Source of the DNA: Multifurca ochricompacta | Taxonomy: Eukaryota; Basidiomycota; Agaricomycetes; Russulales; Russulaceae | Direction: 5' to 3' | Length of the DNA stretch: 64,000 bases | Assembly: GCA_022496185.1 (NCBI GenBank) | Contig: WTXG01000183.1 | Span: 1-64,000, forward strand | Part shown: positions 8,704-63,421 of the stretch, piece after piece | Layout: each line of letters opens with the position of its first letter | How positions within the stretch are numbered: the stretch's first letter is position 1 | Notes under the pieces: generated by a model | The model's database searches: none | Told to the model about the DNA's origin: nothing | What the model saw: the letters and a program-made list of their open reading frames with translations, nothing else | Translations under genes and position numbers: made by a program

Positions 8704-8735
8704 GCTGGCTCTGCTAGGACTTAGAGAGGGGGTAA

Positions 8736-21882: not shown

Positions 21883-21900
21883 GCGTCAGGGCCCATAACC
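21883..21900 (-). other. Copia-I primer-binding site matching the initiator-tRNA anticodon arm
   Basis: On the plus strand GAGCGTCAGGGCCCATAACC ends exactly at the LTR edge. GGGCCCATAACC is the anticodon stem-loop sequence of initiator tRNA-Met, with CAT as the anticodon. The element sense strand therefore has GGTTATGGGCCC right after its 5' LTR, as in Drosophila copia and yeast Ty5, which prime from a half-tRNA. It is a primer site rather than a tRNA gene. Confidence 0.8.
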
Positions 21901-22548: not shown

Positions 22549-23056
22549 TGTCACAGCCAGGTGCGTGCTGTGTCAAGATCAGGAAATTGTTCGAGTTTGA
22601 AGCAACTAGATCAAGATCGAGTCTTTAATCAAGACGAGTCAAGCCCACACAAGTTAGAGGGGCGCGTGCGAGATGCGGGATCGAGCAGCGACACTAAGTC
22701 CTGCCACAAGCTTACTGGGGTTCGAAGACCTCCTAAGACGCGACTTAGAAGGCTCAAGAGTGGGTTTCTGGGAGTCTTGATACACCTGTATTGAACACAG
22801 GAGAACAGACTTAAGGTCTGTTCTCTAGAATGTAGTAGGTTTAAATACAGTTGAATCACTACTAGAGATAAGAGTCTAGCCAATGAAGTAAAGTAGGTAT
22901 AGTAGGATGATATCATGCTGCATCACAGTGACTTCAAAGCTACGTCATACCATGTCATATAAGTACAGGAGATGGGCTAGGCCAGTACATAAGTAAACAG
23001 TAAACAATAGAGGGGTTACACCCTCTATAGTATTTGGTCAGTTAACCTAGTTAGAT
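22549..23056 (-). repeat. Gypsy-J 3' LTR, outer part (LTR5)
   Basis: It matches 36505-37012 of the other LTR and stops at TTAGAT, where Gypsy-K begins. The remaining 77 bases are at 30178-30254. Confidence 0.95.
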
Positions 23057-23788
23057 TGTCACAGCCAGGTCTCTGCTGTGTCCAGGGTCGTTCAAGTCAG
23101 GGCCCCTTCAAGATGTGGGGTGCGTGCAAGGTCAAGACAGTCAAGGGTAAGTTGATTCAGGTGTCAGGGTGAGCCACAGAGGGCCAGGGTCAAGGATCAA
23201 GGTCAAGGCTGCCAAAGCAAGTCAATTCAAGGTCAAGGCAAACTACAAGGAGCTGTAGTCAAGGTTCAAGATGCCCACAAGTTACAAGAAGGGCATGCAT
23301 GCAAGAAGTGAGTCGAAGCAGTGGCAATAGGCCCTGCTAGAGGTCTGGGGTGAAGGCTCCCTAAGTTGCAGCTTAGGGAGTTCAAGGGAATTCTGGGGTG
23401 AAGCACAGTAAACCTGTATTAGATACAAGAGAACAGACTTAAAGTCTGTCTCTACTAATGTGTCCTCCTTAAATACAAGTATTCTAGTGTCTTTGTAAGT
23501 AAAGGAGAATATTCAGATAGTAAAGTAAAAGTCCATGTGAATCTCCAGTGGAGATTGAGACAGGAAATGTAAGTGGTGTTGCACCCACTCCAAAGGCAAA
23601 TGAGTGTCAGTCCAAGTCAGTCTAAGTCCAAAAATCAGATCAGATAAGAAGAGATCATCAACTCCAGTCACATGACTCGGAGTAAGAAGTCGAAATGCTG
23701 AAACAGAAGTCGAATGCGCACAGGTCGAAAAACCGTCACAAAAGTCACACGCGCATCACAAACCGTTACATCGACAAAAAGCGTCACA
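23057..23788 (-). repeat. Gypsy-K 3' LTR (LTR6)
   Basis: It pairs with 29430-30172. The right copy carries an extra short CACGCGTGT-like segment near its end. Other differences are mostly CG/TG/CA. Confidence 0.95.
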
Positions 23789-24204
23789 TCACCCCCGTTG
23801 TACGGTCGAGCTTGCCCCTAAGCTCAGTTGATTAGAGTCGCATCAGTGATACATAGGGGAAAGTGGATTGCGTCGTCTATAGCGTCGAGAGCGTCTGATC
23901 TCGTCTGATTGGGGTGTCGTGTGAAGTTCTGGTCAGCGCGCGTGATGTTAGATAAGATGTAAGTCGCGGTCAGTCCGGTCCACCTGCCATCATCAGTGCA
24001 TGAGTTCTTCTTGGTAGATTAGATCGCCTAGTAGCATACTGATTATGGGAGGTCTTCGTCTAGGTTGCATGATCACAAAGGTCGTCTAAAGATAAGCCCA
24101 CTAGAGAAGTGAATCTTGATCTGTCTTGACAAAGTGTCTGTTGGAAGCGGAAGTTGTTAAGGGTAGTGAAATTGGGCCTTTCATTGTCAGAAATTACCCC
24201 CCCT
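23789..24204 (-). other. Gypsy-K 3' untranslated tail
   Basis: These 416 bases lie between the chromodomain stop and the LTR. I find no frame resembling the J ORF3 or the C-terminal extension of A, C, E and F. Confidence 0.6.
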
Positions 24205-26082
24205 CTAAGACTGGTGCCGACCCTGGCACCTAGATAGTGAATCGTAGTAGGCGCGGATGAGGTCTGGGGCATGACAGTCGTTCAGATCTACCCAGGAGTT
24301 GTCACTAGTAGGGTAGCCCTTCCAGCTAACTAGGAATTGTAATCTCTTGGCGCGTCCGTAGCGGCAGTGGGAAAGTATAGACTCCACTTCATACTCTTCT
24401 TCATGATTGATAAGATCAGGAGGGGGCCTCGCATAATTGGGGCCATGAGTGTCAGTTTCTAGGTAAGGGGATAAAAGATCGATGTGGAACACATTGTGAA
24501 TCTTCATGTGGTCCAGCAGAGCTAAGCGATAGGCCACAGGGGAAATACAAGCCAAGATAGCAAATGGCCCATAGTGTCGAGGGGCCAGTTTGGAGGATGG
24601 GAAATGTGTCTTCAGATTCTTTCCTTTGAGCCAGACTTGCGCGCCAATCTCCAATTGGGGTCAGGCCGGTAGATCCATGGTCGTTCGGAATGCATGTTCT
24701 GTGCGAGATCGAGCATCGTGTAGATTGCGCATATGCTCGTCAACCTGTGGAACATCAGTGTCACTAGCTTCAGCCTTCCAGTCAAACTGCATGCCATGGA
24801 TGAGTGCATGCAGAGAGATTTTCGTTTTATCATGTGGCCAAGAGTTGTGGACATATTCTGCCAATGGTAGGTATTCGGGCCATTGGTGTTGATCATCGCT
24901 TATCCAGAGTCGTAAGTATTGTTCGAGCCAAAGGTTCATACATTCGCTAGATCCATCTGTTCAGGGGTGAAATGCCGTAGATAAATTCTGTTGGATCTGA
25001 AGAGTCTTGGTAAGAGCGCGCAAGAAATGTGATGTAAAGCGCGGATCTCGATCGGAGATTATGCATCGTGGAACACCAAAGATCGGAAGGAGATGGCGAT
25101 AGTAGAGTGTAGCAACACCTTCACCAGTGATATCCTTAGAGCATGGAATGAATTTTGCTGCCTTAGAACATCCTTGATCTACAATTGTGAGTACCGCGTC
25201 ATACTTCCCAGCCGGTGGGAGATCCGTGATGAGATCCATAGCAATATATTGAAATGGGCTGCTAGTTGCCGGTACATCTAATGGAAAGATTGGCGCCTTC
25301 TTTGTGAGTTTCAGCTTATTTTCCTGACATTTGGTGCATCCTCGGACATATTCTCGTACAAAATCCTTCAGGTCTTTCCCTTCGTACTCACACTGTACTC
25401 TGCATGTGGTTTTGTTGATGCCGGGGTGTCCCACTAAGATATGATCATGATAACGCTGAAGGATCTCGCGTCTCTCGGGAACGGTCTGAGGGAATGGAAG
25501 TTTCATTGGTTGCGACATTTTGACAAATAATTCTGCCAGTAGAATAGTGACCTCATCGTTATCTTCTAATCCGCGATCTGCATCCGGTCGTCGCAAGAGC
25601 ATATCAGCAACCGTATGCAGCTTTCCTGGGATGTGCTCAAGGGTAAAGTCAAAATCCGCGAGCTCCTGGAGCCATCTAGCCTGTCGTTGATTGAGTTTCT
25701 GGGGCTCCTTGAAGTACTGAAGATTATTGTGATCGGTGCGGACTTGGACTTTATGTTTGGCGCCGAGAAGGTATTGACGCCACAATCTAAATGCGATAAT
25801 GATAGCAAATAGTTCATGATTGTAAATGTCCCAGTTCTGTTGCATAGCATCTAGAGTCTTGGACAAGTAGGCAATTGGATGTAGTCGCCCTTCGGAATCC
25901 TTTTGACTTAGAGTCGCTCCAAGAGCATAGCCTGAAGCATCCGCATCCACAATAAAGGGTTCTTCAAAGTCTGGTTGCATTAGCACAGGTTGAGAAGTTA
26001 TGCGTTGTTTGAGATTGTCAAATGCTTTCTGTTCTGTCTCTGTCCATCTCCAGGGGTTCTTGGCACTGGTAAGCGCGTTCAA
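24205..26082 (-). pseudogene. Gypsy-K RNase H, integrase and chromodomain
   Basis: The sense opens with FDNLKQRITSQPVLMQPDF and RNase H DADASGYALGATLSQ. Integrase follows with its zinc domain (ILVGHPGINK ... GCTKCQENK) and DDE core (AMDLITDLPP, IISDRDPRFTS and Glu in DGSSECMNLW). After further integrase C-terminal sequence (VWLKGKNLKTHFPSSKLAPR) comes the chromodomain EEEYEVESILSHCRYG ... FLVSWKGYPTSDNSW. In-frame stops near 24960 and 24660 break it. SSEC stands where J has SSER. Confidence 0.9.
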
Positions 26083-27167
26083 TGGGGCTGCAATTGTACT
26101 GAATCCCTGGATAAACCGTCGATAGAATTGGCAAAGCCAAGGAACGAGCAGATTTCTTTTACTGTGGTAGGCGTTTTCCAGGTTGCGACACCTTCCACTT
26201 TGACTGGATCCATATGCACCTGATTTGCTTCTAAAATGAGCCCTAGGTATTTGATGCGCATTTGCTCAAAGGCGCATTTCTCTGGTTTGAGGTATAGATC
26301 CAACTTGTTAAGCTTATCTAGAATGCGGTGTACTTTAGATTGGTGATTCTGGAGATTGTGATTGGTATGAATAAGGATGTCGTCCATGTAAACAGTGAAC
26401 CAGGCCTTTCCAGTGTCGTCTCGCTCGTTAAGTTCATCCCTGAACTCTGCATTCATCATGGTCTGGAATGTTGCCGGAGAGTTTGTGAGTCCAAAGAACA
26501 TAACGTTTGGTTCGTACAGGCCGCGATTGGTCTTGAAAGCTGCCTTCCATCTATCCTCAGGGACTATTTGGATGTTGTTGTACCCCCAGCGGACATCCAT
26601 CTTTGTGAATAAAGTGCTGCCGCGGACACGGTCGATAAGCTCAGGGATCAATGGTAATGGATAAGTGTTTTGGATCATCCACTGATTTAATTTGTGATAG
26701 TCCTGGACTGGTCTGAGTTTCCCATCCTTCTTCTTGATGAAGAAGAAGGGCGATGTGTATGGCGATTTTGACTCTTTAATGTACCCCTTCTGTAGGTGCT
26801 CCTCTAAGAATTTATTTAACGCGTCCTGTTCTCCAGGCCCCAGAGGGTAGATCTTACAATCTAGTGTTGATGGTGCATCTGGCTTTAATTCAATTTGATG
26901 ATCCCACGGCCGGGCCTCAGGGAATCACTGCGCTTCCTGGTCACTGAACACCTTCTGATGTCGATGGTACTCCTTCAGCACGATCTGATCCCAAGAGTGC
27001 TCGATATTATCTTTCGCTTTGATTGCTAGTTCCTGAGCAATATTCAATTTTCTAACATGTGCTCCCAGTACACTGAGTTGGATCGATTGCATAAGATGTC
27101 CTTGTCTCCAGTCTATAATCAGGTTACTAGCAGCAAACCAAGGGTAGCCCAAGATCATTTGGTCCAT
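26079..27167 (-). pseudogene. Gypsy-K protease end and reverse transcriptase
   Basis: It starts with the second protease motif MILGYPWFAAS and a linker containing YHRHQKVFSDQEAQ. A stop follows near 26926. RT has [48 protein letters not shown] and an intact YMDDILIHT (about 26370-26396). A frameshift in SFLGF near 26125 moves the sense into the RNase H frame. Confidence 0.88.
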
Positions 27168-28582
27168 CCTGATTGACGCAATATAGAACTGGTGTTGCTG
27201 AGATTGTTGTTTGTAATTAGATCTAGATCAACATATTGATTAATGCACGGGGTGGCGTTAGGGGTCCCATCAGCGTTTCGTAGTTTCTTTGGGATCGTGA
27301 GTCGTTTTGTCAGGAGTTGATATTTGATGACCGTTCTATAGTTAATAAAATTTTCTGTTGCACCACTATCAATGAGTGCTTCTATGCTGGCCTTCTCTTT
27401 CACACCATGGAGAGGGATAACCACATTCATTGCCCAGATAGGTGAGATGAATACATGATGTGAAACTATCACTCGAATGAAGGCCGCGCCATTCAAGTGA
27501 TATAAGAAATCCTCATCATTCTTAAATTTATTCTGCAGTTCAAGGTGTTGGTCGTCGGTCAGAGATTTCAAGGAAGCAGCAATTGCTGTGATATTCATTG
27601 TCGGCTTCGAGATGTTTGATCCAGTGGGTACCGTCGCAGTCGTCAGAGTGACGTTCATGATAGTGGCAGTCCGGGTTGGATCGGTTGTAGTCTGCCGTGG
27701 AGCTTTATTTGGGCAATCTCTGATGAGATGTCCTCGGTGTCCACATTCGAAACAGCGACCCTCCTTTCTACAGCATTCTTTATCTTCTGTGGTGACTGCT
27801 TTTCTGATTGTGTCTGCGTTCATGGCATTCGGGGCGCATCATCGAGGGAGAGTGAACTTTACTCCTTGATCATTATTTTGACTAGTGATTGTTGTTTTGT
27901 TCCCAAGAAGGCTCTGGATGAAGACCCAGTTCGCATGGTATCTTCGAGCTGAATCTGCTGTTTCGTCGAACGTCTGGGGGCTGCCCTGGGTAATCACAGT
28001 CTGCACGAGTCTCCATGGTAATCCTTTCTGAAAACTCTGCCGTGTTGCTGGGTCATCCAGGTGCAGTCTGGCCCAAGCTGCGAGATCTTGGAAATCAGCG
28101 ATATAATCATCAATGTTTCTATTTGTCATCCGGAGTTTCTCCAACTCCTCTAGTGCTTTTTGCTTGGTGGTTTCATCGGCGAATGCTGCCTGAAACGTTT
28201 GTCGGAATTTCTCCCACAGGTGCGGCTCCTGAATTCTGGCATGGGCTACATTGGCTAGCCACCTTGTCTGCTCTGTCACCCATCTGCTAATCTTGGGTCC
28301 TCTCATTAGGGTCAACACATATGATATTCTGGAGATTTCATTTTTTATGACTGTTGCTTGGCTATTTAGGAAGATGTGGAGCTCCACTCGAGTCCACCAG
28401 TGTTCTGCTTCAGCTTGGTTTCCATCAAAGAATGGGGGCGGTGCCCCTTCGATTCGGTCTCCTGTCACACCATCCTTGGGTGTCATGGTGGTGAGTAATT
28501 CAGTCAGTCCTTCTTCAGGGTCCTCTGGATCCACTGATTGTTGTTGTTGTCTAGGTTGGGAATCAGGTGGCGTGGTTGACAT
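27155..28582 (-). pseudogene. Gypsy-K gag and protease
   Basis: A true ATG at 28582-28580 starts MSTTPPDSQPRQQQQ. The capsid-like region follows (FFDGNQAEAEHWWTRVELHI, FRQTFQAAFADETTKQKALE, NIDDYIADFQDLAAWARLHL). A TGA at 27839-27841 interrupts the frame, which continues with the knuckle CFECGHRGHLIRDC and protease EALIDSGATENFINY. Gag and protease are in one frame here, unlike the A/C/E/F group. A frameshift near 27160 leads into the next block. Confidence 0.88.
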
Positions 28583-29416
28583 CAGTCCTGGATTCGGTAC
28601 TGCCAGTGGTGCGTTGAATAATGGTTGGAGAATACGTTTTGTCAGTGGGGTTTCGGTGGATTTAAGTGCGTGTATTTCAGTTTCGTTGGGGGCTACTCTA
28701 ATAGCCTCTATCTGTCCTAGGTTGTTAGGACGGACGTGGTATCAAGTCTTTTAGGCAAAGATCGACTGCAAGCTGCGTATGTCGGTAGGGGGTCCAATAT
28801 CCCCTAAAAGGTACGTTTTTCCTTTTGCGACTCTTATCTGGCATGTGTTTCTCTTTCGGCTCCAGGTTGATGTTGTCGGTCAATCGGACAGGAAGGAGGT
28901 CACTACAGGTGCAAGATTCGTTTTGATGGAGGTCAATGGAAATCCCTGGAGCAGTCGCGCTTTCCCATCAAGGTTCGAGGACGAAGTCGGGGTTCAGGGA
29001 TTTAGTGTCGTGTGGGGAACTGTCAGTCGGGGGATCGCTTGCAAGAAGGGCAAGGTGGTTCCAGTTCTCAGGTAAGATGTGTTCGATTTCTGGGGTTACT
29101 GATCTATCTTCTAGGTTTCGATCCAGAGATTGGTTTTCGAGGGATGCGTCGTCTGTCAAAGGGTTCTGCAGAGTGGGGCGTTGTCATTTGGGGATTCAGG
29201 AGAGGGGGAGGAGTCATCCAAAGGCGTCCAAGGTTCCCTTGCGGAATAAGATGTCTTCGTTCAGGGTTCGGACAAGAGGACGCGGGTCTGGGTGAGTCTC
29301 TTTCTTCTTGAGTTCTGGGGCTGGCGATTAGGATTGCTGGCATCTGGGTGTCGGGGCGAGGGACACGTCGTTGTCGCCTTGCGCGTTCAGTAAGTTCTTT
29401 TCTTTCTAAGTTCTGT
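28583..29416 (-). other. Gypsy-K 5' leader and possible gag leader
   Basis: About 830 bases lie between the primer site and the gag ATG. Short frames contain phrases such as NWNHLALLASDPPTDSS, but none is continuous with gag. I assign no function. Confidence 0.45.
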
Positions 29417-29429
29417 AAGTCTGTTCTAA
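29417..29429 (-). other. Gypsy-K primer-binding site (self-priming type)
   Basis: On the minus strand TTAGAACAGACTT follows the LTR. Its AGAACAGACTT is the perfect 11-base complement of AAGTCTGTTCT in the 5' LTR (29803-29813), about 25-35 bases past a TATTTAAGG TATA-like box. Confidence 0.75.
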
Positions 29430-30172
29430 TGTCACAGCCAGGTCTCTGCTGTGTCCAGGGTCATTCAAGTCAGGGCCCCTTCAAGATGTGGGGTGCGTGC
29501 AAGGTCAAGACAGTCAAGGGTAAGTTGATTCAGGTGTCAGGGTGAGCCACAGAGGGCCAGGGTCAAGGATCAAGGTCAAGGCTGCCAAAGCAAGTCAATT
29601 CAAGGTCAAGGCAAACTACAAGGAGCTGTAGTCAAGGTTCAAGATGCCCACAAGTTACAAGAAGGGCATGCATGCAAGAAGTGAGTCGAAGCAGTGGCAA
29701 TAGGCCCTGCTAGAGGTCTGGGGTGAAGGCTCCCTAAGTTGCAGCTTAGGGAGTTCAAGGGAATTCTGGGGTGAAGCACAGTAAACCTGTATTAGATACA
29801 AGAGAACAGACTTAAAGTCTGTCTCTACTAATGTGTCCTCCTTAAATACAAGTATTCTAGTGTCTTTGTAAGTAAAGGAGAATATTCAGATAGTAAAGTA
29901 AAAGTCCATGTGAATCTCCAGTGGAGATTGAGACAGGAAATGTAAGTGGTGTTGCACCCACTCCAAAGGCAAATGAGTGTCAGTCCAAGTCAGTCTAAGT
30001 CCAAAAATCAGATCAGATAAGAAGAGATCATCAACTCCAGTCACATGACTTGGAGTAAGAAGTCGAAACACTGAAACAGAAGTCAAACGCGCGTGGGTCG
30101 AAAAACCATCACAAAAGTCACACGCACGTCACACGCGTGTCACAAACCGTTACATCGACAAAAAGCGTCACA
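29430..30172 (-). repeat. Gypsy-K 5' LTR (LTR6)
   Basis: 743 bp, starting TGTCACAGCC and ending GTCACA. The inferred start AAGTCTGTTCT (29803-29813, minus) lies inside an inverted repeat (AGAACAGAC / GTCTGTCTCT) that is also present in LTR5 and LTR7. Confidence 0.95.
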
Positions 30173-30177
30173 TAGAT

Positions 30178-30254
30178 AGGTTAACTGATACAACTCAGAC
30201 AGTTATTCAAACAGTCGACAAAGAAAAGAAAAGTAAGGAAAACAAACTGTCACA
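30178..30254 (-). repeat. Gypsy-J 3' LTR, inner part (LTR5)
   Basis: These 77 bases match 37013-37089, ending CTGTCACA. Added to 22549-23056 they give 585 bp, the same length as the intact 5' LTR. Confidence 0.95.
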
Positions 30255-30292
30255 TCACCCCTCTGTTACAGTGGTGCTTGCCTCAAGCACCC

Positions 30293-31590
30293 TTAGTCTT
30301 CACCAGTGAGATCAATGATGTGAGGTGGAGCAATGCGAAGACGACAACGGCGAGGCAGATGGGAACTACCTATGCCCCCAGCCTGTAGGACAGCATGCAG
30401 TTCTGGGTGGGGTGCAAAATGAGAGGCAGCTGCTGGTGTCATGCGGGGGTTATTGGAATATGCATAAGTTAAATAGGGGTAAAGTCGATAGTAAACATCA
30501 CCACGAGACATAGCATGGACAGCCAAACGAATATCTTGATTGGCTCTCTCAGCCATCCACCTCCAGTGTGCAAGGTTCCTGTGGGCTTCATCCAGACGGC
30601 AAGCTCCATAGCAGTAGCGAGACACCTCAGCCCAAGCTCCAGGATCATCTAAGTCATCAAGGGCACCATTGACAATGGTGGTGAAGGTCTGGTCAGCCTC
30701 AAAGAGTCGTTGTTGCATGGATGTGAGAATGGGGTTTGGGCCACGGTCAAAACAAGGGTGTGGAGTAACATGAAGTGGAATATAATAGACTGGTTGATGG
30801 GCCCCCATGGTAAAAGCAATGCACGGGTCTGAGCGACGATAGTCATAGGCTAACCAACGAGCAATGTTGACACGGCCAGCATTGTCTGAGATGCGGTGGT
30901 CAAAGAAGTGGTGAGAGTGTTCATGATTACGCATGAATGGAAGAGGGGGGGGTCATACTGGTCGGCGTGTTCTCTTTCCTCTTCGACTTCTTGTTGGGTT
31001 TGTTGTATGATAGCCTTGTCTGGGAGCTGGCCAGGTTCAGGCCCCAGGGAGGTGGGTCAATAGGTGGTAGTGGGATCAATGGGTGGGGACGTGTCAGCCT
31101 CCAGTCTCGCACAAACCTCCTGCAATAGAGCCAGCACTCGAGCACGAACCTCTTGGTCCACTGTCTGGTCTTGAGAGGCTAGTGCGATCACCTGGGTCAT
31201 ATTCTCTGCTGGGATGTCAGACATGGTAAAGGAAAAGTGGGAAGGAGGGGTCGAGTTGGTAGATGATGAAGCAGGAGTGGTAGGGAGTGTAGGAGTGTTG
31301 GCAGGTCGAAGTAGAGCACCAAGGGTGGCAGCATCATTGGCAGCAGCTATAGTTCGATCTAAGAAGGCGATGTCGATAATGGGGACAGGTGGGGTGTCAG
31401 TCTGGGTGGTGTCGGGTTGAGAAGTTGAAATGCAGCAGGAGGTCGTCATTCTGGGGGTTGGCTTGAAGGATTTGTGTGGGGTGGAGAGTCTAGTGGTATT
31501 CTTAATACGGGCCAGAGCTGAAACGGTTTGTGGGACTGCAGAGAAGAAAACGTGAAAATTTGATGAAAAACATGAAAACGTGAAAACCAA
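30293..31590 (-). pseudogene. Gypsy-J ORF3, extra protein downstream of pol
   Basis: This frame starts just past the integrase stop. Its N-terminal 177 codons are Thr/Pro/Ser-rich and end with a helical segment (VDQEVRARVLALLQEVCARL). After one TGA at about 31057 the sense continues with a helical acidic stretch (QQEVEEEREHADQYD). It then shifts frame at a run of eight Cs (30947-30954) into 213 codons (to 30293) with NIARWLAYDYRRSD ... PVYYIPLHV, AWAEVSRY and a GDVYY motif. By eye this second half lines up with the extension of Gypsy-C (VTIAKYIFYTNRGMD ... GPVYEALVY, KAEVMRL, GDVYQ). No signal peptide or membrane span is visible, so it is not an obvious envelope protein. No known family comes to mind. 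Confidence 0.7.
31532..31556 (-). promoter_or_regulatory. Candidate 3' splice site before Gypsy-J ORF3
   Basis: On the minus strand the pyrimidine run TTTTCTTCTCTGCAG ends with AG at 31537-31536, between the integrase stop (31607) and the first conserved part of ORF3. This is a textbook acceptor. It would allow ORF3 to be made from a spliced RNA. No donor was identified. Confidence 0.4.
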
Positions 31591-31606
31591 CGAAAATCAC
31601 CCCCCC

Positions 31607-32710
31607 TTAAGGGAGGCGACGACCCTGGCGCCTAGATAACGAAGAATGGTACCGCGTGAGAAGGTCCGGGGTGTGACAGTCATCCTTATCTACCCAAGAG
31701 TTTTCACTGGTTGGATAACCAACCCAGCTGACCAGATATTGAAGCTTCTTCTGACATCCAAAGAACCGGTGAGCTAAGATGGTGGCAACTTCATATTGTT
31801 CTTCCTCGTTGATAAGGTCTGGTGGGGGACATAAATAATTGGGGCCATGAGCCGTTGTTTCACGATAAGGAGATAACAGGTTAGCATGGAATACATTGTG
31901 GATGTGCATGTGAGTGGGCAAAGACAAACGAAAAGCAAGAGGAGATATTTGTGTGGCAATTGTAAAAGGGCCATAACGCCGAGGAGCGAGCTTGGTCGAG
32001 GGGAAGTATGTTTTTAAATGTTTTCCCTTGAGCCATACTTGTGCGCCGACGATGAAGTCAGGGTTGGGCAGTGGAACCGAAGCGGATGCTTGAAACGCGC
32101 ATTCCGCGCAAGAGCGCGCGGTTTGTAAGTTCTGTAATTGTTCGTTGACCTGGGGGACATGCGTTTCATGTATCTGAGCATTCCAATCAAAAGTGATGCC
32201 GTGTAGAAGTTCGTGTGGGGAGAGTTTTGTTCGATCGTGTGACCAGGTGTTATGGACATACTCAGCTAAGGGGAGATAATCTGGCCATCTATATTGGTCA
32301 TCGCCCAGCCAAAGACGTAAGTATTGCTCTAGCCACAGGTTCATGCGCTCACTAGATCCATCGGTTTGCGGGTGAAAGGCCATCGACAGGTTTTGTTGAA
32401 TTTGCAGAACATCAGCAAGCGCACAGGCAAAATGGGAGGTGAAATGGGGGTCTTGGTCGGAAATAATGCGCCTTGGGACTCCAAAGAATGGAAATAGATG
32501 TCTATAATATAATATTGCGATTCCTTCACCAGTGATATCTTTAGAACATGGTATAAATTTCGCTGCTTTCGTACATCCTTGGTCGACGATCATTAACACA
32601 GCATCATATCGACCTGACAACGGAAGATCTGTAATGAGGTCCATAGCCACATACTGGAATGGACCGGCGGTGGCGGGTACGTCCAAGGGATACGATGGTG
32701 CTTTCCCCAC
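31607..32710 (-). pseudogene. Gypsy-J integrase core and chromodomain
   Basis: This 367-codon open block begins right after a TGA. It holds the DDE triad (AMDLITDLPLSG, IISDQDPHFTS and Glu in DGSSERMNLWLEQ), the C-terminal VWLKGKHLKTYFPSTKLAPR region and the chromodomain EEEQYEVATILAHRFFG ... YLVSWVGYPTSENSWVD. It ends at RQGRRLP. Integrase inserts the cDNA and the chromodomain is the likely targeting module. The block itself has no stop. Confidence 0.9.
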
Positions 32711-32713
32711 CAG

Positions 32714-33520
32714 TCAAGGTTTATTCTCCTGACATTTGGCGCATCCACGTATGTATTCGCGTATGAACGGCTTTAGATCCGGCCCTTCGTACTCTTGTTG
32801 GATCCTTTGTATCGTTTTGTCAATGCCCGGATGGCCCGCTAGTAAGTGATTGTGATACTGCTGAAGAATTTTGCGGCGTTCAGAGAGCGTCCAGGGAAAC
32901 GGGAGTTTGTCGTCAGTTACTGTCTTGATAAATAATTCATTGGGGAGGACTGTAACCTCTTGGTTGTCGTCCTCGCCATGGTCCGCATCGGGTCGGCGAG
33001 ATAACATATTGGCAATGGTGTGTAATTTTCCTGGGACGTGCTCAAGCGAGAAATCAAAGTCTGCAAGCTCCTGGAGCCAACGAGCTTGTCTACAATTCAG
33101 TTTTTGTGGTTCCTTAAAGTATTGAAGGTTATTATGATCAGTACGAATTAGGACTTTATGTCTAGCACCCATGAGATATTGTCGCCATGAGCAGAGTGCG
33201 ACAATGACTGCAAATAACTCGCGATCATAGATATCCCAGTTCCTTTGTGTCGCATCCAATGTTTTTGATAGATAAGTGATTGGGTGAAGGCGTCCTTTGG
33301 GATCCTTTTGACTGAGGGTGGCGCCCAGTGTGTACCCTGATGCGTCGGTATCTACAATGAAAGGTTTATCGAAGTCAGGTTGGGCTAAGACTGGCTGAGA
33401 TGTGACTCGTCGTTTTAGAGTATCGAAAGCGTTTTGTTCTTCTGTCATCCAGTGCCAAGTTTTCTTTATACTGGTCAAAGCATTCAGTGGGGCTGCGATT
33501 TTACTGAATCCCTGAATAAA
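32714..33520 (-). pseudogene. Gypsy-J RNase H and integrase zinc domain
   Basis: The sense runs FDTLKRRVTSQPVLAQPDF, RNase H DTDASGYTLGATLSQ, then LLAGHPGIDKTIQR ... GCAKCQENK, the HHCC zinc domain. A TGA separates it from the integrase core (ENKP-stop-LVGKAP, where K has ENKLKLTKKAP). Another at 33521-33523 separates it from RT (sister reading RRF). Confidence 0.88.
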
Positions 33521-34906
33521 TCAACGATAGAACTGGCAGAACCCCAGAAAGGATCGGACCTCTTTGACATTTGTGGGCATTTTCCAGGTGGCAACACCTT
33601 CTACTTTTACAGGATCCATGTGAATGCGGTCAGCCTCCAGAATGAGACCTAAGTATTCAATGCGTGTTTGTTCAAATGAGCATTTCTCCGGCTTGAGATA
33701 GAGGTCCAAATCACTAAGTTTATCCAAGATGCGATGTACTTTTGCATGATGATTGACCAGATCATGATCAGTATGGATGAGGATATTGTCCATATAAACG
33801 GTGAACCAAGCCCTTCCGTTAGTGTCACACTTGTCCAGTTCCTTTTGGAATTCAGCATTCATCATAGTCTGAAAGGTTGCTGGAGAGTTAGTTAACCCAA
33901 AGAACATCACATTTGGTTCAAATAGACCGCGGTTCGTTTTGAATGCTGCCTTCCAGCGATCTTCTGGGACGATGCGTATATTGTTATAGCCCCAGCATAT
34001 GTCCATCTTTGTAAATAAGGTACTACCGTGGACGTGATCTATTAGCTCTGGGATCAGCAGAAGAGGATACGTATTACGGATTGTCCAGTCATTTAGCTTT
34101 CGATAATCTTGAACAGGTTGGAGCTTGCTGTCTTTCTTCTTAATGAAAAAGAAGGGGGACGTGTAGGGTGATTTCAACTCCTGAATATAGCCCCTTTGTA
34201 AATGTTCTTCCAAAAACTTGTTTAATGCATCTTGCTCTCCTGGTCCAAGAGGGTAGATCTTGCAATCTAAAGTGGCTGGTGCATTGGGTTTTAATTCAAT
34301 TCGATGATCCCAGGGGTGCGGCGCTGGGAAGCACTGTGCCTCCTCGTTGCTAAAGACTTTGTGATGTTCATGATATTCAGGAGGTATGACCTGGTCCCAC
34401 GATCTTTCTATTTTGTCTTGTGCCTTGATGGCAAGTTCTTGTGCAATATTGAGACGTCGGATCCTGTCGCTAGGGAGAGCGAAGTGGATCTGTTGATTTA
34501 GTTGTCTGTTCTGCCAGTCAATTTGTGGATTTGTTGCTGCAAACCAAGGGTACCCCAGGATCATGTCGTCAGTGCTGATAGATGCGATGTAGAAGCGATG
34601 CCATTGGAGTCTGTTGTCTGTAGATACTAGCAGATCAACACATTGGGTGATTTTATTAGTGGCGTTAGGGGATCCATCTGCGTTTTGTAGTTGTTTTGGA
34701 ATCGTCAGACGTTTAACTGGGAATCTGTTTTTAATAATCATCCGATAACTGATGAAATTTTCCGTGGCTCCACTGTCCACAAGTGCTTGTATATGGGCCT
34801 CTTTTTTTGTCACTCCATGTAGGGGAACAGATATTTTCATTGCTCTGAGTGGTGATCTGAATACATGATGTGATACTAGTGCTCGAATGAAGGCCACGCC
34901 ATTCAA
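33521..34906 (-). pseudogene. Gypsy-J protease and reverse transcriptase
   Basis: This 461-codon open block carries protease (ALVDSGATENFISY, then MILGYPWFAA) and RT ([42 protein letters not shown]). The catalytic box reads YMDNIL (about 33783-33800) instead of YMDDIL, a GAT-to-AAT type change that should abolish polymerase activity. The block ends at FCQFYR before a TGA. Confidence 0.9.
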
Positions 34907-36215
34907 GCGATATAAAAATCCTCATCTCCTTTAAATTGATTTTGTAACTCCAGTTGCTGTTCATCAGTCATGGTCTTGAGAGCAGCCACCAACGCGGGAA
35001 TGCTAATCGCAGAAACAGAGGGTGCCATGAGCACTGGGGAGGGGGCCGCAGGCGCAGTGGGTACTGCTGCAGTTGCGGGTGGCACTTCCGAGATGGTGGC
35101 AGTCTGAGCCGGTGCATTTACACCAGTCCTAGGTTTTTTGTTTGGGCAGTCGCGGACAAGATGACCTCGTCATCCGCATTCAAAACAACGTCCTTCCTTC
35201 TTATACTGTTCCTTTTCTTCAGCAGTGACAGCCTTCTTTATGGTGTCTATGTCCATGGTGTTAGGATTGCATTTCTTGTAAAAGGTGAACTTGTTTCCAC
35301 GTGGGGACGGATCTGTGTTCTTTTTCCTACCGACAATACCTCAGAGAAAGACCCAGTTGGCTTGGTGTCGTCTAGCTGAGTCAGTGGCTTCCTCTAGTGT
35401 TTGCGGCTGGTCCTGAGTTAGGATTGTAGTGGCTAGTCCAGTGGGCAGTCCACAATAGAAGTATTGTCAAACACTGGCGTCGTCTAAGTGCAGCTCAGCC
35501 CGAACAGCTAGATTGTGGAACTCTGCGATATAATCATCAATGTTGCCATCTTTCATTTGTAATCTCTTGAGCGCTTGCAGCGCTCTTTGCCCTGCCGCCA
35601 CATCGGACCAGGCGGCAATGAAGGTTTGTCGGAAGATGTCCCATGGTCATTGAACTCTAATTCTATTTTGAGCGATGTCGACTAGCCAATTGGTCTGCTC
35701 TTCGACCCATCAATCGACTTTCAGTCCTCTCATCAACGCCAATACATACGCTATGCGGCTTTGCTCGTCCAGAATGGTAGCCGCATATTTGTTCAAAACA
35801 AGTGTAACTCAAGCTGAGCAAACCACCGTTTTGCCGTGGAGCGGTCGCCTTCAAAGAAAGGTGGGGGTGCTCCTTTGATTCACCCTGCTACTGGGATATT
35901 TGGCGCTAATCCTAGAGCAGGGCCTGGTGGGCCTCCTCCTGGTGGGCCTCCTCCACCTCCGGGGCCGCTTCCTCCGCCTCCTGGTGGGCCGCCACCTGAC
36001 AAGGTTTGTCCCGTTCCTGTGAATTGGGAAGGGGTCGTCCCAGGGTTGTACTAACTGTGGTAGGGAGTGCTGTCGTCATCAATGTTGTTGGGTTGCTCAA
36101 GAGTGAGGCTGTTGGTGGTGCCATGGGGAGCGCGATGGGTGTGAGAAAAGGTTCCTCAGGTAAGTTCAATCCAGTCTCTTCGGGTGCTATACGTACAGCT
36201 TCAATCTGACTCAAG
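34907..36215 (-). pseudogene. Gypsy-J gag
   Basis: The degenerate sense includes an acidic and Pro/Gly-rich N-terminal region, FFEGDRSTAKRWFAQLELHL, FRQTFIAAWSDVAAGQRAL, NIDDYIAEFHNLAVRAELHL and the knuckle CFECG-RGHLVRDC, in which the residue after CFECG is a stop. Several TGA codons and frameshifts are present. One near 34917 at a short T run joins it to protease. The architecture equals Gypsy-K gag. Confidence 0.8.
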
Positions 36216-36491
36216 TTATTAGGGTGTATGTGGTACCAAACACCTCAATACCAATCAACAGCAAGGTTAGTCTGTTGATACGGGACCCAGTAACCGCGGA
36301 AGGGAATGTCTTGCTCGTGTGCTTCAAGCCAATGCGCGGATCGCTTCAGATGTTGAGGGAGGTTGTCACTGGTCCTGGGAGGGAGTATAAAAGGGAATCG
36401 AATGGAAGTCGTGGTGTCGGGAGTCGGGGCAAGGGACGCGTCGTCGTCTCCTTGCGGCTCTGGTGAGTTTTCTTTATTCTGTGAAGTCTGT

Positions 36492-36504
36492 AAGTCTGTT
36501 CTAA
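36492..36504 (-). other. Gypsy-J primer-binding site (self-priming type)
   Basis: On the minus strand TTAGAACAGACTT follows the 5' LTR. AGAACAGACTT is the exact complement of AAGTCTGTTCT at 36758-36768 (minus) in the LTR. The leader between here and gag (36216-36491) holds nothing I recognise. Confidence 0.75.
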
Positions 36505-37089
36505 TGTCACAGCCAGGTGCATGCTGTGTCAAGATCAGGAAATTGTTTGAGTTTGAAGCAACTAGATCAAGATCGAGTCTTTAATCAAGATGAGTTAAGC
36601 CCACACAAGTTAGAGGGGCGCGCGCAAGATGCAGGATTGAGCAGCAACACTAAGTCCTGCCACAAGCTTACTGGGGTTCGAAGACCTCCTAAGACGCAAC
36701 TTAGAAGGCTCAAGAGTGGGTTTCTGTGAGTCTTGATACACCTGTATTGAACACAGGAGAACAGACTTAAGGTCTGTTCTCTAGAATGTAGTAGGTTTAA
36801 ATACAGTTGAATCACTACTAGAGATAAGAGTCTAGCCAATGAAGTAAAGTAGGTATAGTAGGATGATATCATGCTGCATCACAGTGACTTCAAAGCTACG
36901 TCATACCACGTCATATAAGTACAGGAGATGGGCTAGGCCAGTACATAAGTAAACAGTAAACAATAGAGGGGTTACGCCCTCTATAGTATTTGGTCAGTTA
37001 ACCTAGTTAGATAGGTTAACTGATACAACTCAGACAGTTATTCAAACAGTCGACAAAGAAAAGAAAAGTAAGGAAAACAAACTGTCACA
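36505..37089 (-). repeat. Gypsy-J 5' LTR (LTR5)
   Basis: 585 bp. A minus-strand TATA-like TGTATTTAAAC lies at 36796-36806, and the inferred start AAGTCTGTTCT (36758-36768) lies within a palindrome (AGAACAGAC ... GTCTGTTCT). Confidence 0.95.
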
Positions 37090-37094: not shown

Positions 37095-38244
37095 TGTAGT
37101 TGTCAAAAATTTCCCATCTGCTCACCCCTCCACACATCCCTCCTCTCCCATTGACTATGAAGCTGCAGAAGTGTGAGTCAAGAATCAATCCCCCAACCCC
37201 AATGATGACTTTGACCACTGTGAAGAACCTCACCCGAACAACCTATTGGGGATGGAATTGGATGATGAAGTTCTGGAGTTCCCATTCTTTGCCAACAACC
37301 CGAACTCCTCCATGTACTTCCCTCTTGAGATCACCATGGCTGACAGAGAGGTCACCATTGCGAAATATATCTTCTACACCAACAGAGGAATGGACGTAGC
37401 CAGATGCATGAAGAAGAATGGCCCAGTCTATGAGGCCCTGGTTTATCTAGAGGAGAGATATACAGGTTGTCTCCATCATACAATGAGTGATGAACAACTC
37501 AGGCATTTAGCCACTGATGACTCTCGAGCCTTTGCAATAGACAAAGTGCTAAACGACATGTGCCTTCCGTGTCTCAAAGCAGAAGTAATGAGACTGCAGA
37601 AGAACCTGACACTGCGCACCACACTCAACAAACAGTACAAAGAACATGCAAAGATGATGATGAGATTGACTAGCAGGATGTTCCAAGTGGAGCAGGAACT
37701 GGTAGAAATTTGGAAGAGGCTGGAAAAGGGAGATGTGTATCAAACTATTGCTGAAAGGTACACTGACATGTATGTGTGGCCCCTCCCTCCACAATCATTG
37801 GGAGCTGCCCCAATGCTGCTGCTGAATCGATTTGAGATGCTGTGTATGCATGAGAATCCCTGTGGAGAGACATGTTGGCAGTGTGACAGTAAGTACCATA
37901 TCAGTTGGAACTGCCCCCTCAACCACAAGTGGTGCTGCCACTGTCACAGCAATTTACACTGGAGCCAATTCTGCATTTTTTGCCACATAGGTGTTGCCCC
38001 AATGATTATCAATCCATCTGGGTGGTGTGGCAAATGTCTCTGCCACAACTCAGGACATTGTGAGCTGGACTGCCCCATCCATGACCTATGCTATTTGTGT
38101 GGGCAATGTGGCCCTTACAGGTTCCTCTGTGCCCACAGATGTCCCCAGGATTCGGACAAAGAAAATTACACCATGGACAATCGTAATGTAGCTGACGATT
38201 ACTTGGACTTGGTGCAGGATGATGACAGTATGAGTTGCTTCTAG
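37095..38244 (+). CDS. Gypsy-C C-terminal extension, zinc-knuckle array protein
   Basis: After a short linker (HPSSPIDYEAAEV, one TGA at about 37171) an open frame of 332 codons runs 37246-38244. It contains DDEVLEFPFFANNPNSSMYF, VTIAKYIFYTNRGMDVARC and GPVYEALVYLEERY. A probable coiled coil follows from CLKAEVMRLQKNLTLR to VEQELVEIWKRLEKGDVYQ. Then come Cys/His motifs: CWQCDSKYHISWNC and CCHCHSNLHWSQFC (both C-x2-C-x4-H-x4-C), WCGKCLCHNSGHCELDC and CYLCGQCGPYRFLC. The tail is acidic with SDKENYTMD and YLDLVQDDD. Zinc knuckles suggest nucleic-acid binding. In Gypsy-E the same module is in frame with integrase, so it is normally the C-terminus of Pol. This is the only fully open copy. Confidence 0.85.
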
Positions 38245-38275: not shown

Positions 38276-38867
38276 TGTTATGACCTCTGCCAAGTAACCC
38301 CATTTTCTTCACCCTTCCCAACAAGAACCCCTCCTTACTGCCTACTCTACACTTCCTGATCACATCTCCATCCTGGGACCCATCACATGCCCTCCTCCCA
38401 TCCCCATGACCTGCTTTGTATCTGTTGACTTGACATTTATCCATGTTTACTTCTTTATCTCTTTATCTCCTTATCTTTACAACCGGACACTTACTTAATC
38501 CCCTATCAGAAGCCAGGCTTTATGCCATCTGCTTTTGTATATTCGGGCCCACCTGACTCCACTATCTTATCTATAGATGCCCACTCAATTACGTATATAT
38601 AAGTCCACTGTAACTACCTTGTAGACTTGAGACTCAACTTATTGAATACATCAGTGTTTGTCTTCTGGACAGTCCCCTTTGAACCTCAACTTAGTTGTCT
38701 CAGTGCTTTCAAAGCACTCCTCCACTCAACATTGTCTTAGGGAAGTGTGCTTTTGACTTTGACTCATCCCACATAAACTCCAAGAAGTCCTATTGACTTC
38801 TTATCTGAAACTCACAAATGAATGCTGTCACACACGTCGTGTGGAATGTCCCACACCAGATGTAACA
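38276..38867 (+). repeat. Gypsy-C 3' LTR (LTR2)
   Basis: This 592-bp partner of 10538-11137 is preceded by a purine tract (AGAAGAGGGGGTGA, 38262-38275) and followed by the duplication AAAGT. Confidence 0.96.
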
Positions 38868-44921: not shown

Positions 44922-45518
44922 TGTAATGCCTGGTGCAGGCATTCAGCACAACATGTGACTAAGTTGCGTAGCAGAACTATGAAGTCTGTGTACACTGTGT
45001 TACAAGTGTACAGAGGTGAGTGACAAGTCAATACCAAGGAGCTAATCCCTTAGTACTGGTGAGCGGAGAAGTGCCAGAAGCACTGAGACGATTCAAGGGT
45101 CGGGTCTTTAGAGATCACCCAGAAGGTAATGCACCAAGTCAATTAAGAAGTTGAGTCTAAGGTATACAGGGCTATCTAGGCAGGCCTTATATACATAATA
45201 GAGGTCAGGGTCTGAATTGGAGTACAGTACTCGGTGTATCAACAAAGTCATAATGTAACTAAATAGGGAAATGGAGTACAGGTGGGCCAGGTGAGAATAT
45301 ACCAAGATGTATTCAGTATAGTCATGATTCTGGTGGGAAAATATGTAAGAGTCCTTGTGTAATATATGAGTCATAGATAAACAAAGAAGATGGGTCATAG
45401 ATAAGGGACAAACAAGTATAAAGAAAGGCAAGAGCATAATCAACAAGGGTCAAGCAAGGCCAAACAACAAGTCACGTGAGGAAAAAGGAAACAAGATGAT
45501 GCAGTGGGGTTCATAACA
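44922..45518 (-). repeat. Gypsy-E 3' LTR (LTR1)
   Basis: 597 bp, same length as the 5' LTR. On the minus strand it follows a purine tract (AGAGAGGGGGTAA). Confidence 0.95.
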
Positions 45519-45549: not shown

Positions 45550-47583
45550 CTAGATAGGCATACCATCATCATCTTGGACCAAGGAGAGATAGTTGTCAGC
45601 TACAGCATAGTGGTCAGCATCATAGTTCTCCTTTTCTTCATCCATGGGGCAAATGTGTGTTCATAGAAAACCATAGGGCCCTCTTCTCCCACATTGAAAG
45701 CAGCCATTGTAAATGTGACAGTCAATTTCTCGGTGGCCTGCGTTGTGAGAGAGACATTTGCCACACCATCCAGATGGGTTGAGGACATTGGAGGCCTGTG
45801 TGAGCCATCAGAATAAACACTGGTGGCTCCAATGCAAGGTGCTGTGACAGTGTCGACATCATTTCTTGGTGGTGGGGCAGCACCAACTAAGGTGATATTT
45901 GCTGCTGCAACACCAGCAAAGCTGGCTGCTGGGATTTTTGTGGAGCCGTGGCATTTCGAAACAGTGTGGGTTCAGTTGGTGCGTGAGTTTGAGGTGGCGA
46001 CAAGGAAGGGGTTGAGCAAATATGTTGGCATACCATTCTGATATGGTTTGGTATGCCTCTCCTAACTCCAGTCACGTCCTGATGGCTGCCAGGTGTTGTT
46101 CTACATCAAAAATCCCTTGTGAAATCCTCACCATCTGTTGTTCATAATCATGGCACTGCATGTCTAAGTTATCCTTGAGTGCTTGGAACTTGTGCAGCCG
46201 TGCGACCTCAGCAGTGAGTCGTGGCATGCATAAGTCTTGGAGCACCTCATTAATGGCAAAGGTGCAAGGGTCTGTACTTGACAGATGCTTCAAGTGCTCC
46301 AGCCCTAAGACATAGTGAAGCTGGTCAATCTTTTTCTCTTCCAGGTAGATGGGAGCTCTGTAGACTGGTCCTCCTTTCTCCAAGCATCCTGCCACATCCA
46401 TACCTTCGTTGGTGTAATAAATGTATTTTGCCACTTCTGTTGTGCTGTCGTTTCTGGACATAGGGATCATGAGCAGAAAATAAAACTGTGATGCAGGATC
46501 ATTTGGGAAAAATGGGAATTCAGGGGCCTCGTCTCTGAAGTTGACATCAATCAGGTCATTCAGGTGGGGGTGCTCGGGCAGACTAAAATCTTCATTGATG
46601 TTGGTGGCTTTGATCCCTTCAGCCACTTTGGCAGCGGCATTGTAGTCAATAGGAGATAATGGATGAGAAGGAGGATGAGCAGGAGAAAGTAGGGGAAAGG
46701 CATTGATTGTGGCGGAAGTGTGGATGCTGGAGGGAGACATAGAGTTCATTCTGAGATGTACTGGGGGAGAGGACTGTTGAGGTGAGTACATCATGGCCTC
46801 CTCTTTATCTGCTTGGGGATGGCATCTATAGAAGTCTTTGATTAATTTGGGTGCAAAGACATCCACAGCAGATTCCCACGAATTGTCAGCATCAGGGAAT
46901 CCCTTCCATTTGATTAGGTAATGGAGTTGATGTTTGCGCCCTTGGCCTTTCCATTTAGCGTCAGCAATGTGCTCCACTTCCCACTCTGGTTCTCTGTCGA
47001 TTAATTCAGGAGGGGGTCTTGGGAAGTTCTGTCCATGAATAGGAGTCTCCTTGTACGGTGTGAGAAGGTTGGCATGGAAGACAGGGTGTATCTTCCACAT
47101 GGGGGGCAGCATCAATTTGTATGTAATATCCAAGAGCTTCTGTTCGATCAGGAAGGGGCTGTGATGTTGGGGAGCTAATTTCACCATTGGATGAGAAGTG
47201 TGGATGTTGTGCCCTTCCAGCCAAACTTGATCTCTGACTTGATAGGGTGTAAACTTTGTGGGCTTCTTGGCCAGGGTCCTTTGCACCTTGATAAGGCTTT
47301 TATTGGCAGATTCCCATATCTCCTCCCATTGGCCAATATGCTGGGTAACTGATGGTATGTTGGTAGGCTTATCCATCCAAGTGGTGTGAGGGTTCCATCC
47401 CATAATAAGGGAGAAGGGGGAGACCTTTGTCATCCTGTTCAGCCAGCTGTTGTGTGCAAACTCAGCTGTTGCTAGCCATTCTGCCCAGTTGTCCTGTTGC
47501 TTGTTGCACCAGAAGCAAAGGTACTGCTCCAGCCATTGATTTGTTCGTTCTGATTGACCATCTGTCTGGGGGTGATATGCCAT
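45550..47583 (-). pseudogene. Gypsy-E integrase C-terminus, chromodomain and extension
   Basis: One open frame (47583-46072) starts at the third integrase catalytic region ([20 protein letters not shown], Glu present). It runs through VWLEGHNIHTSHPMVKLAPQ and the chromodomain EWEVEHIADAKWKGQG ... LHYLIKWKGFPDADNSWE to a Ser/Pro linker. It then enters the extension (DEAPEFPFFPNDPASQFYF, VAKYIYYTNEGMDVAGC, PIYLEEKK) and the coiled-coil part. A TGA at 46072-46074 and further damage precede the Cys/His region and the EEKENYDAD tail, which ends at TAG 45552-45550. This copy shows that the extension is physically fused to integrase. Confidence 0.88.
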
Positions 47584-48495
47584 GGAGATGTTCTGCTGAA
47601 TATCGAGATGTTTACAGAGGGCTCATGCAAACATAGATGCAAATCGTGGGTCTCTATCAGAGATAATCTTCTGGGGGAGTCCATAGTGTCGGTATACATG
47701 GTTCAGGTAAAGTTTAGTGACTCCTTCAGCCATGAACGTCTCATTACAGGGAATGAAGAGTGCAGCTTTGGAGCAGTCATGATCAGTGATGGTGAGTATC
47801 ATGTTGTATCCCTGTGACTGTGGTAGTTTAACTATGAAGTCCATGGCGATAGTCTGAAAAGGGGCTGTTGCAATGAGTGTGATAGGGGAAATTGCTGGTG
47901 GTCTGGGGTGTGTATTCACTTTATTTGCCTGGCATTCTGTGCATCCTTTGACATATGCCTCTACATCTTTCTTCATATTCGGCCACCAGTAATCTCGCTT
48001 GGCAAGGGCATACATGTTTGTGATGCCAGGATGTCCTGCAGAGGGAAGGTCATGGTGAAAATGGATCACCCCCCTCTTAATGTTGTTGCCACTGGTGACA
48101 ACCAGCCTATTGTTGTCCTTCCACCAGAGGCCATCCTTCATTTTTATATTATGTGGCTCTACCCAGGACTTGCATAGCTCCTGGTTCATGTTCTGTGTCA
48201 CTTGGGCCCACAAATCCATGTCATGAAGGCTGACAACAGCAGTTTTTGCAAAGACATCTTCTGGTAAGACCACAATATTATTGTTGTCATTCTCTCCTTC
48301 ATCACTGCCGGCTGGTCTGGACAGGGCATCTGCATGTGCATTGCGAGCTCCAGGGAGATGTTTAAGCATGAAGTTGTATTCTTTGAGCTCCAAAACTTCA
48401 CATGCCACTCGTTGACTAATCTTATGGGGTTCTCGCCAATACAGAAGATTGGAGTGGTCGGTATAAATGATGGTCTTATGTGGAGATCCTGCCAA
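47584..48495 (-). pseudogene. Gypsy-E RNase H end and integrase core
   Basis: An open block (48495-47623) has YTDHSNLLYWREPHKISQRV, NAHADALSRP, the zinc domain (HFHHDLPSAGHPGITN ... GCTECQANK) and the first two catalytic Asp (AMDFIVKLPQ, IISDRDPRFAS). It stops at a TGA in FA-stop-ALCK where Gypsy-A has Arg. The terminal stop upstream (48496-48501) is also TGA, in QHW-stop-PYLAG. Confidence 0.88.
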
Positions 48496-51846: not shown

Positions 51847-52443
51847 TGTAACGCCTGGTGTGGGCGTTCAGCACAACATGTGACTAAGTCATGTAGTGGA
51901 ACTACGAAGTCTGTGTACACTGTGTTACAAGCATACAGAGGCAAGTGACAAGTCAATACCAAGGAGCTAATCCCTTAGTACTGGTGAGCAGAGAAGTGCC
52001 AGAAGCACTGAGATGATTCACGGGTCAGGTCTTTAGAGATCACCCAGAAGGTAATGCACCAAGTCAATTAAGAAGTTGAGTCTAAGGTATACAGGGCTAT
52101 CTAGGCAGGCCTTATATATGTAATAGAGGTTGGGATCTGAATCAGAGTACAGTACTCAGCATATCAACAAAGTCGTAATGTAACTAAATAGGGAAATGGA
52201 GTACAGGTGGGCCAGGTGAGAATATACCAAGACATATTCAGTATAGTTGCGATTCTGGTGGGAAAATATGTAAGAGTCCTTGTGTAATATATGAGTCATA
52301 GATAAACAAAGAAGACGGGTCATAGATAAGGGACAAACAAGTATAAAGAAAGGCAAGAGCATAATCAACAAGGGTCAAGCAAGGCCAAACAACAAGTCAT
52401 GTGAGGAAAAAGGAAACAAGACAACGCAGTGGGGTTTGTAACA
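51847..52443 (-). repeat. Gypsy-E 5' LTR (LTR1)
   Basis: 597 bp with TATA (CATATATAAG, minus) and the inferred start AGACTCAACTT. The flanking ACAGG follows at 52444. Confidence 0.95.
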
Positions 52444-52448
52444 ACAGG

Positions 52449-52929
52449 GATGAGTCAAAGTCAAAGGGGCTGTTCCCTAAGACTCTGTTGAGTGGAAGAG
52501 TGCCAAAAGCACTGAGATGGATGAGTCAAGGATTCAAAGGGGATGTCTGGAAGACAAGCACTGATGTATTCAATAAGTTGAGTCTGGAGTCTACAAGGTA
52601 GATACAGTGGGCTTATATATGTAATCAGGTGGGCGTCTACGAGATAAGAGTCATGGAGTCAAGTGGGCCCAAATATATGGAAGCAGAGGGCATAAAGCCT
52701 GGCTTCTGATAGGGAATTAAGTAAGTGTCCAGTCACAAAGATAAGAGATAAGAAGACAATCATAAGCAAAGTGAAGTAAACAAGTACAAAGGCGATCACA
52801 GGGAAGGAAGCAAGGCACATGATGGGTCCCAGGAAGGAGATGTAATCATGAAGTGTAGCATAGGGGGGAGGGCAGGGTCATTGTTGGGGATAGTGAAGAA
52901 AAGAGGGTTGCTAGGCAAGGGTCGTAACA
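52449..52929 (-). repeat. Gypsy-F 3' LTR, inner part (LTR2)
   Basis: These 481 bases complete the LTR begun at 44826-44921 (total 577, equal to the 5' LTR). The minus-strand purine tract AGAAGGGGGGTGA precedes it. Confidence 0.94.
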
Positions 52930-52959
52930 TCACCCCCCTTCTGGTTCTAGCAGACCCAG

Positions 52960-63419: not shown

Positions 63420-63421
63420 TA

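Follow-up and report, generated by a model that had tools for sequence, protein, structure and literature searches.

ORF3, a constrained third gene of Multifurca ochricompacta chromoviruses, is separate from Pol in one family and part of Pol in another

Chromoviruses of the window and the position of ORF3

The window, the 64,000-nt stretch of Multifurca ochricompacta DNA analysed here, contains chromoviruses of two families, LTR1 (elements A and E) and LTR2 (elements C and F). The chromovirus features found are a chromodomain at the integrase C-terminus, LTRs and a polypurine tract. In element E, the chromodomain (PF00385, E 3.5e-11) and SH3_Tf2-1 (PF24626) lie together in the frame 47622-46072, and both domains also occur in D1 and D2. 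In RT, LTR1 (A) and LTR2 (B) are 77% identical, LTR2 and D1 62%, and D1 and D2 81.5%. The two LTRs of each of A, C, E and F match at 93.1-94.5% identity, so none of the four copies is recent; a purine run precedes the LTR in each. The LTR2 element at 10538-38867 is interrupted by a Copia element, D1 and D2, inserted in nested fashion; element C of the first-pass annotation is the 3' part of this element, and the name is used here for the whole. Near the window end lies a near-perfect inverted repeat (62958-63661), with 242-nt arms of 99% identity set 220 nt apart.

Past the chromodomain, A, C, E and F carry the same sequence blocks, as the first-pass annotation had reported. This coding region, here called ORF3, is open for 355 codons in C, and in A, E and F its frame is disrupted by stop codons, frameshifts or an insertion (Table 1).

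Table 1. Positions of the elements and of ORF3 features in the window
Feature	Position	Strand	Remark
Element A (LTR1 family), LTRs	728-1320 and 8736-9330		
Element A, ORF3-equivalent region	7514-8704	+	decayed
Element C (LTR2 family), 5' LTR	10538-11137	+	93.3% to 38276-38867
Copia element inside C, repeats	16043-16342 and 21897-22196		element ends approximate
Element C, Pol stop after chromodomain (PKDS-stop)	22419-22421	+	77 nt upstream of ORF3 ATG, other frame
Element C, ORF3 first codons (ATG of MSFIAAN...)	22499-22548	+	severed from body by D1; pieces read apart, not joined; coordinates counted from printed frame
D1 (other chromovirus lineage) inside C	22549-37089		
D2, inserted within D1's LTR	23057-30173		
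D1, coding sense between pol and LTR	30293-31449	-	frameshifted; ATG at 31449 is our reading
Element C, ORF3 body (zinc-array protein)	37177-38244	+	355 codons, stop TAG
ORF3 N-terminal domain (EFPFF..NNP, AKYI.YTN, PVY..VYLEE blocks)	37276-37545	+	
ORF3 long helix, probable coiled coil	37567-37725	+	low-confidence model and heptad test
Zinc module 1, CX2CX4HX4C	37873-37914	+	
Zinc module 2, CX2CX4HX4C	37933-37974	+	
Zinc module 3, CX2CX6HX4C	38026-38073	+	
Module 4, CX2CX11HXC	38089-38142	+	
Acidic tail with DKEN and DLVQDDD	38143-38241	+	
Element C, 3' LTR	38276-38867	+	ORF3 end 31 nt upstream, polypurine tract between
Element E (LTR1 family), LTRs	44922-45518 and 51847-52443		
Element E, ORF3-equivalent region from conserved Met	45550-46740	-	decayed, in-frame TGA stops
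Element E, integrase C-terminus, SH3, chromodomain, first half of extension	46072-47622	-	single open frame
Element F (LTR2 family), LTRs	52443-52930 and 61041-61528		
Element F, ORF3	52960-54738	-	broken by insertion and frameshifts

The relationship between ORF3 and Pol differs between the two families. In the LTR2 element C, the piece 22197-22548 holds the end of the chromodomain, the PKDS-stop, the 77-nt spacer (22422-22498) and, in another frame, the MSFIAAN ATG. Across the genome, LTR2 Pol ends in TAA at 26/26 junctions found (chromodomain-end pattern, 33 loci), and the ORF3 ATG lies 70-78 nt past this codon in 25 of them, copy L005 being the exception. The spacers place ORF3 in phase with Pol in 13 cases and out of phase in 12, with all three phases represented. 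The coding sense in C and F, first taken as a continuation of Pol, is a separate ORF after the Pol stop. Within 60 nt upstream of the LTR2 ORF3 ATG, the motif CCCCAG is found at 26 of 28 starts located (absent from L005 and L008), which is compatible with a candidate 3' splice site for a subgenomic mRNA.

In LTR1, ORF3 is in frame with Pol at 50/50 loci, where 'HPxADK(E/D)' is followed by 20 codons and then Met; the start Met of LTR2 ORF3 is retained as a residue of the fusion. Natural open frames reach at least 842 aa in L061, from upstream of the chromodomain through the tail, and 648 aa in L064. In element E, for which continuity with integrase had been noted, 47622-46072 is one 516-aa ORF comprising SH3_Tf2-1 and Chromo. 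The fusion to integrase first proposed for all four elements thus describes LTR1 and fails for LTR2, where Pol terminates and ORF3 has its own ATG. As read from these junctions, ORF3 is a third gene, and LTR1 is the only one of the two families in which it belongs to Pol.

Parts of the ORF3 protein

The ORF3 protein is ~396-399 aa long; the open copies encode 399 aa in 11 LTR2 cases, 397 aa in one LTR2 case (L083) and 396 aa in two LTR1 cases. An alignment of ten open copies gives the order: N-terminal linker, N-terminal domain, helix, four zinc-type modules and acidic tail. The N-terminal domain is marked by the motifs EFPFF..NNP, Y(F)PL, AKYI(Y/F)YTN-GMDVAGC and GPVYGAPVYLEE. The predicted helix covers ~53-68 residues at pLDDT ~50-72, within models of low overall confidence (two AlphaFold predictions, A2 and A6, mean pLDDT 37.6 and 40.0). 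The heptad-rich stretch described at first pass is present, but its signal is only moderate: in four sequences it is reached by 4, 94, 190 and 239 of 5000 shuffles.

The Cys/His ligands are nearly invariant. Across 53 copies of both families, 13/16 ligand columns show no change, and the remaining three have one exception each. The repeated C-x2-C-x4-H-x4-C spacing first assigned to the array applies to modules 1 and 2 but not to the other two of the four; it is the motif of CCHC zinc knuckle proteins, present twice per protein. A six-frame scan of the window for this motif gives 14 matches, seven in frames whose position marks them as gag or gag-like, and seven in ORF3 extensions. The gag knuckle is still present in elements bearing ORF3 (3123, 12445, 50519, 59614), making ORF3 an additional knuckle protein.

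Comparison with known domains returns little. A search of Pfam yielded no named family for the region, one of the two outcomes that would have told against the first-pass reading: across seven window pieces and the ten members of profile A3, the extension has no Pfam match. In the same set, no dUTPase or gag domain is matched in the extension and zf-CCHC falls short of its gathering score. In the distant relatives P0002 and P0003, zf-CCHC scores 20.5 and 20.4 bits against a gathering score of 20.8. Against PDB sequences, the ORF3 profile yields 27 weak matches (best E 0.03): 16 to Lin28 or retroviral Gag/nucleocapsid knuckles around modules 1-2, five to GCN4-type coiled coils on the helix, and six others.

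The tandem CCHC knuckles and the weak profile matches to nucleocapsids would suit a gag nucleocapsid that was displaced or duplicated. This origin is very improbable and is rejected, since the same elements retain their gag knuckle; the absence of a gag match in Pfam also speaks against it. An envelope-like protein could be expected from the position of ORF3 downstream of integrase, which is that of env in Metaviridae (PMC7879559). In five sequences, however, the best 19-residue hydropathy is 0.68-1.45 and there is no transmembrane-like stretch, and the Cys/His ligands are constrained. An envelope function is very unlikely and is rejected for its missing transmembrane stretch.

The C-terminal tail is acidic and hydrophobic and is conserved between LTR1 and LTR2. 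The KEN motif that was first used to characterize it is not fixed: it is absent from one open LTR2 copy (L083) and lies in the N-terminal part of P0002 and P0003.

Copies and constraint

The Multifurca ochricompacta genome (53.8 Mb, 605 contigs) contains at least 114 LTR2-type and at least 144 LTR1-type scored ORF3 matches, some of them partial. Rates were estimated (NG86) for the 53/80 loci whose two ORF3 ends were found in the same frame (22/30 LTR2, 31/50 LTR1), the other 27 being dropped. The median dN/dS is 0.04 in LTR2 (22 copies, 231 pairs, pN 0.069, pS 0.665, 43 pairs without dS), where copies L001-L030 were ranked by ORF3-protein similarity, which lowers dN. In LTR1 it is 0.07 (31 copies, 465 pairs, pN 0.089, pS 0.605, eight without dS), with 20/50 loci (L061-L080) picked mostly for open frames; the LTR1 query excluded the zinc array, and the zinc array dN/dS in this family is still 0.073. 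Three further copies, L081-L083, were picked for open Pol frames out of 150 chromodomain-list rows; ORF3 is present in 3/3, frameshifted within the zinc part in L082, and the two open copies give a dN/dS of 0.032.

By region, dN/dS ranges over 0.02-0.09 in LTR2 and 0.04-0.23 in LTR1. The yardstick taken from the integrase-C/SH3/chromodomain segment is 0.20 in LTR2 (16 copies) and 0.10 in LTR1 (30 copies); the LTR1 maximum of 0.23, in the N-terminal linker, exceeds the yardstick of its own family. These within-family values, far below 1, bear out the proposal that the region is a selected coding sequence. Between LTR1 and LTR2, synonymous sites are saturated (681/682 pairs not computable), and thus give no reliable dN/dS; the synonymous excess (pN 0.30, pS 0.84) speaks against neutrality, and a ratio near 1, the other outcome that would have told against the first-pass reading, was not obtained from these pairs. 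On the low dN/dS and the near-invariant ligands, a chance open frame is rejected. At dN/dS ~0.05 in two diverged families, ORF3 must, to judge by this constraint, matter to the element.

Most copies are nonetheless decayed: among the 53, open frames remain in 7/22 LTR2 and 2/31 LTR1 copies. In the L001-L080 copies of this set, 123/126 in-frame ORF3 stops are TGA, and 124/126 fall at Arg columns of same-family copies. This is the signature of CpG C-to-T decay following insertion, pointing to CpG-directed decay in the repeats of the genome.

Relatives, proposed role and known systems

A single-sequence protein search with ORF3 has P0001, from Multifurca ochricompacta, as its sole match, and the LTR1 extension has none at E<=0.001. 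P0002 and P0003 came up only with the ten-row profile A3 (E<=10), in searches whose candidates were limited to 0.55-1.75x the query length, such that long Pol fusions could escape. P0002 (461 aa, E 3.7e-60) and P0003 (422 aa, E 5.3e-57) cover 85 and 92% of the query at 33-34% identity, with colinear N-domain, helix and zinc modules; of the 16 ligands, P0002 keeps 15 and P0003 all. Among ORF3 copies scored with P0003, 13/99 share one open-frame length, 401 aa, and may form a further ORF3 subfamily. No relatives were confirmed in IMG/VR or in bacterial/archaeal genomes. ORF3 may be common in mushroom genomes, where repeat masking could hide it.

A more distant relative is found in D1. Here, a stop at 31607-31609 ends Pol; the ORF after it uses a different frame, and the matching 219-aa part lies in the frame of Pol, as read in one decayed copy. 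Pairwise hhalign aligns this part to 152 columns of profile A5, in the N-terminal domain and helix (E 9e-7, probability 91%). In a rerun, the probability is 85% and the score 36.8; the top scores among 100 shuffles and among 62 other window ORFs are 11.3 and 13.2. This suggests that the ORF3 gene is older than LTR1 and LTR2. The D1 relative lacks zinc modules, and the core function may accordingly not be zinc-mediated. In D2, there is no ORF3-like frame between Pol and LTR, and none exceeds 73 aa.

Taken with the separate ORF3 of LTR2, the listing of P0002 and P0003 as separate proteins and the Pol stop ahead of the D1 ORF suggest, by parsimony, that the LTR1 fusion is likely the derived state. 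The same observations bear on the possibility that ORF3 extends integrase and anchors the integration complex on chromatin or DNA, as in the targeting role suggested at first pass. The LTR1 junctions, in frame at every locus, and the long frame of L061 speak for such a tether. The LTR2 stop codons and the three spacer phases run against it, as does the separate listing of P0002 and P0003, although gene prediction may have divided a fusion. In D1, Pol likewise stops before the related ORF, and 0/150 scored copies of this ORF in the genome have an open frame longer than 461 aa. As ORF3 is separate in LTR2, fusion to integrase cannot be essential to its function in general. Tethering is unlikely as the role of ORF3, and targeting through the fusion is conceivable in LTR1 only.

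An alternative would be a host-directed regulatory or counter-defence protein, either anti-silencing or a degradation- or SUMO-linked adaptor, whose KEN/acidic tail is the interacting part. The conservation of the acidic hydrophobic tail between LTR1 and LTR2 fits this proposal, as does the end of the D1 relative, IIDLTGED, which we take to resemble a SUMO-interacting motif. Yet the position of KEN is not conserved, and the CpG-type decay shows that the repeats are still targeted. Such a function is rather improbable.

The sequences establish that the gene exists and is under selection, that the Cys/His ligands are present and that two arrangements occur, and the role proposed here builds on this. 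ORF3 is probably an oligomeric nucleic-acid-binding accessory protein of fungal chromoviruses, encoded by a third gene between pol and the polypurine tract. The protein would bind zinc through its modules and oligomerise via its helix. By analogy with nucleocapsid and Lin28, the tandem knuckles may bind single-stranded nucleic acid, and the protein could act on element RNA or cDNA, in the particle or the pre-integration complex. In LTR1, ORF3 would be made with Pol and then probably freed by protease; in LTR2, it would be made via termination and re-initiation, or from a spliced mRNA. Its net charge (K+R minus D+E) of -4 to -17 in five sequences differs from that of a typical nucleocapsid and counts against the proposed role. 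Modules 1-2 share spacing and local sequence with the tandem knuckles of retroviral nucleocapsid and Lin28, as reflected in the weak profile matches, whereas ORF3 has four modules, two of them differently spaced, and no likeness is seen in the rest of the protein.

A broader reading may be offered tentatively: ORF3 would be an undescribed old third gene whose N-domain is common to at least two deeply separated lineages, LTR1/LTR2 and D1, with one lineage adding the four-module zinc array. The gene would have switched between separate and Pol-fused states, and would provide a second nucleocapsid-like activity that does not depend on gag and that retrotransposition requires.

The elements share with other chromoviruses (Metaviridae, Ty3/Gypsy) the gag CCHC, Pol with integrase, SH3_Tf2-1 and Chromo, the polypurine tract and the LTRs, and differ in having one more protein gene, placed past the chromodomain and ahead of the 3' LTR. 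For Metaviridae, between one and three genes are described, and env is the third (PMC7879559). In most descriptions of fungal chromoviruses, gag and pol form either a single fused ORF or two ORFs (PMC2864245). That Pol normally ends at the chromodomain, as the first-pass annotation assumed, has a published exception: PosPlaTy3-4 carries a dUTPase at the Pol carboxyl end (PMC2864245). Fungal chromoviruses in that source likewise bear extra coding sequence, in one case at this position, whereas ORF3 has no dUTPase. In fungal chromoviruses, the dUTPase is variously placed, and a figure legend names an 'add. ORF of unknown function' (Novikova 2010, PMC2864245). ORF3 may be identical to this ORF, whose bearer element is shown only in a figure.

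Accessory ORFs of other LTR elements offer partial parallels. The ORF3s of bdelloid rotifer elements (PMC5408684) are, like the one here, family-specific and downstream of pol, and some contain coiled coils. The types named for them (env-like, GDSL, DEDDy, coiled-coil, transmembrane) are unlike the present protein, and the single Zn knuckle mentioned is placed after a dUTPase, between protease and RT (PMC5408684). In plant Gypsy elements, the Retand TRP28 ORFs (PMC11963269) and the orchid AlkB ORF (PMC9289625) encode accessory proteins with likely nucleic-acid roles, as proposed here. Their domains are other than those of ORF3, and the Retand ORFs are antisense (PMC11963269, PMC9289625). No description of the ORF3 protein was found in full-text searches of open-licence papers. 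Accessory ORFs are a known kind, while the protein family, its constraint and the fused/unfused pair appear new. The two sister families, one fused and one unfused, constitute a natural experiment on the need for the tie to integrase.
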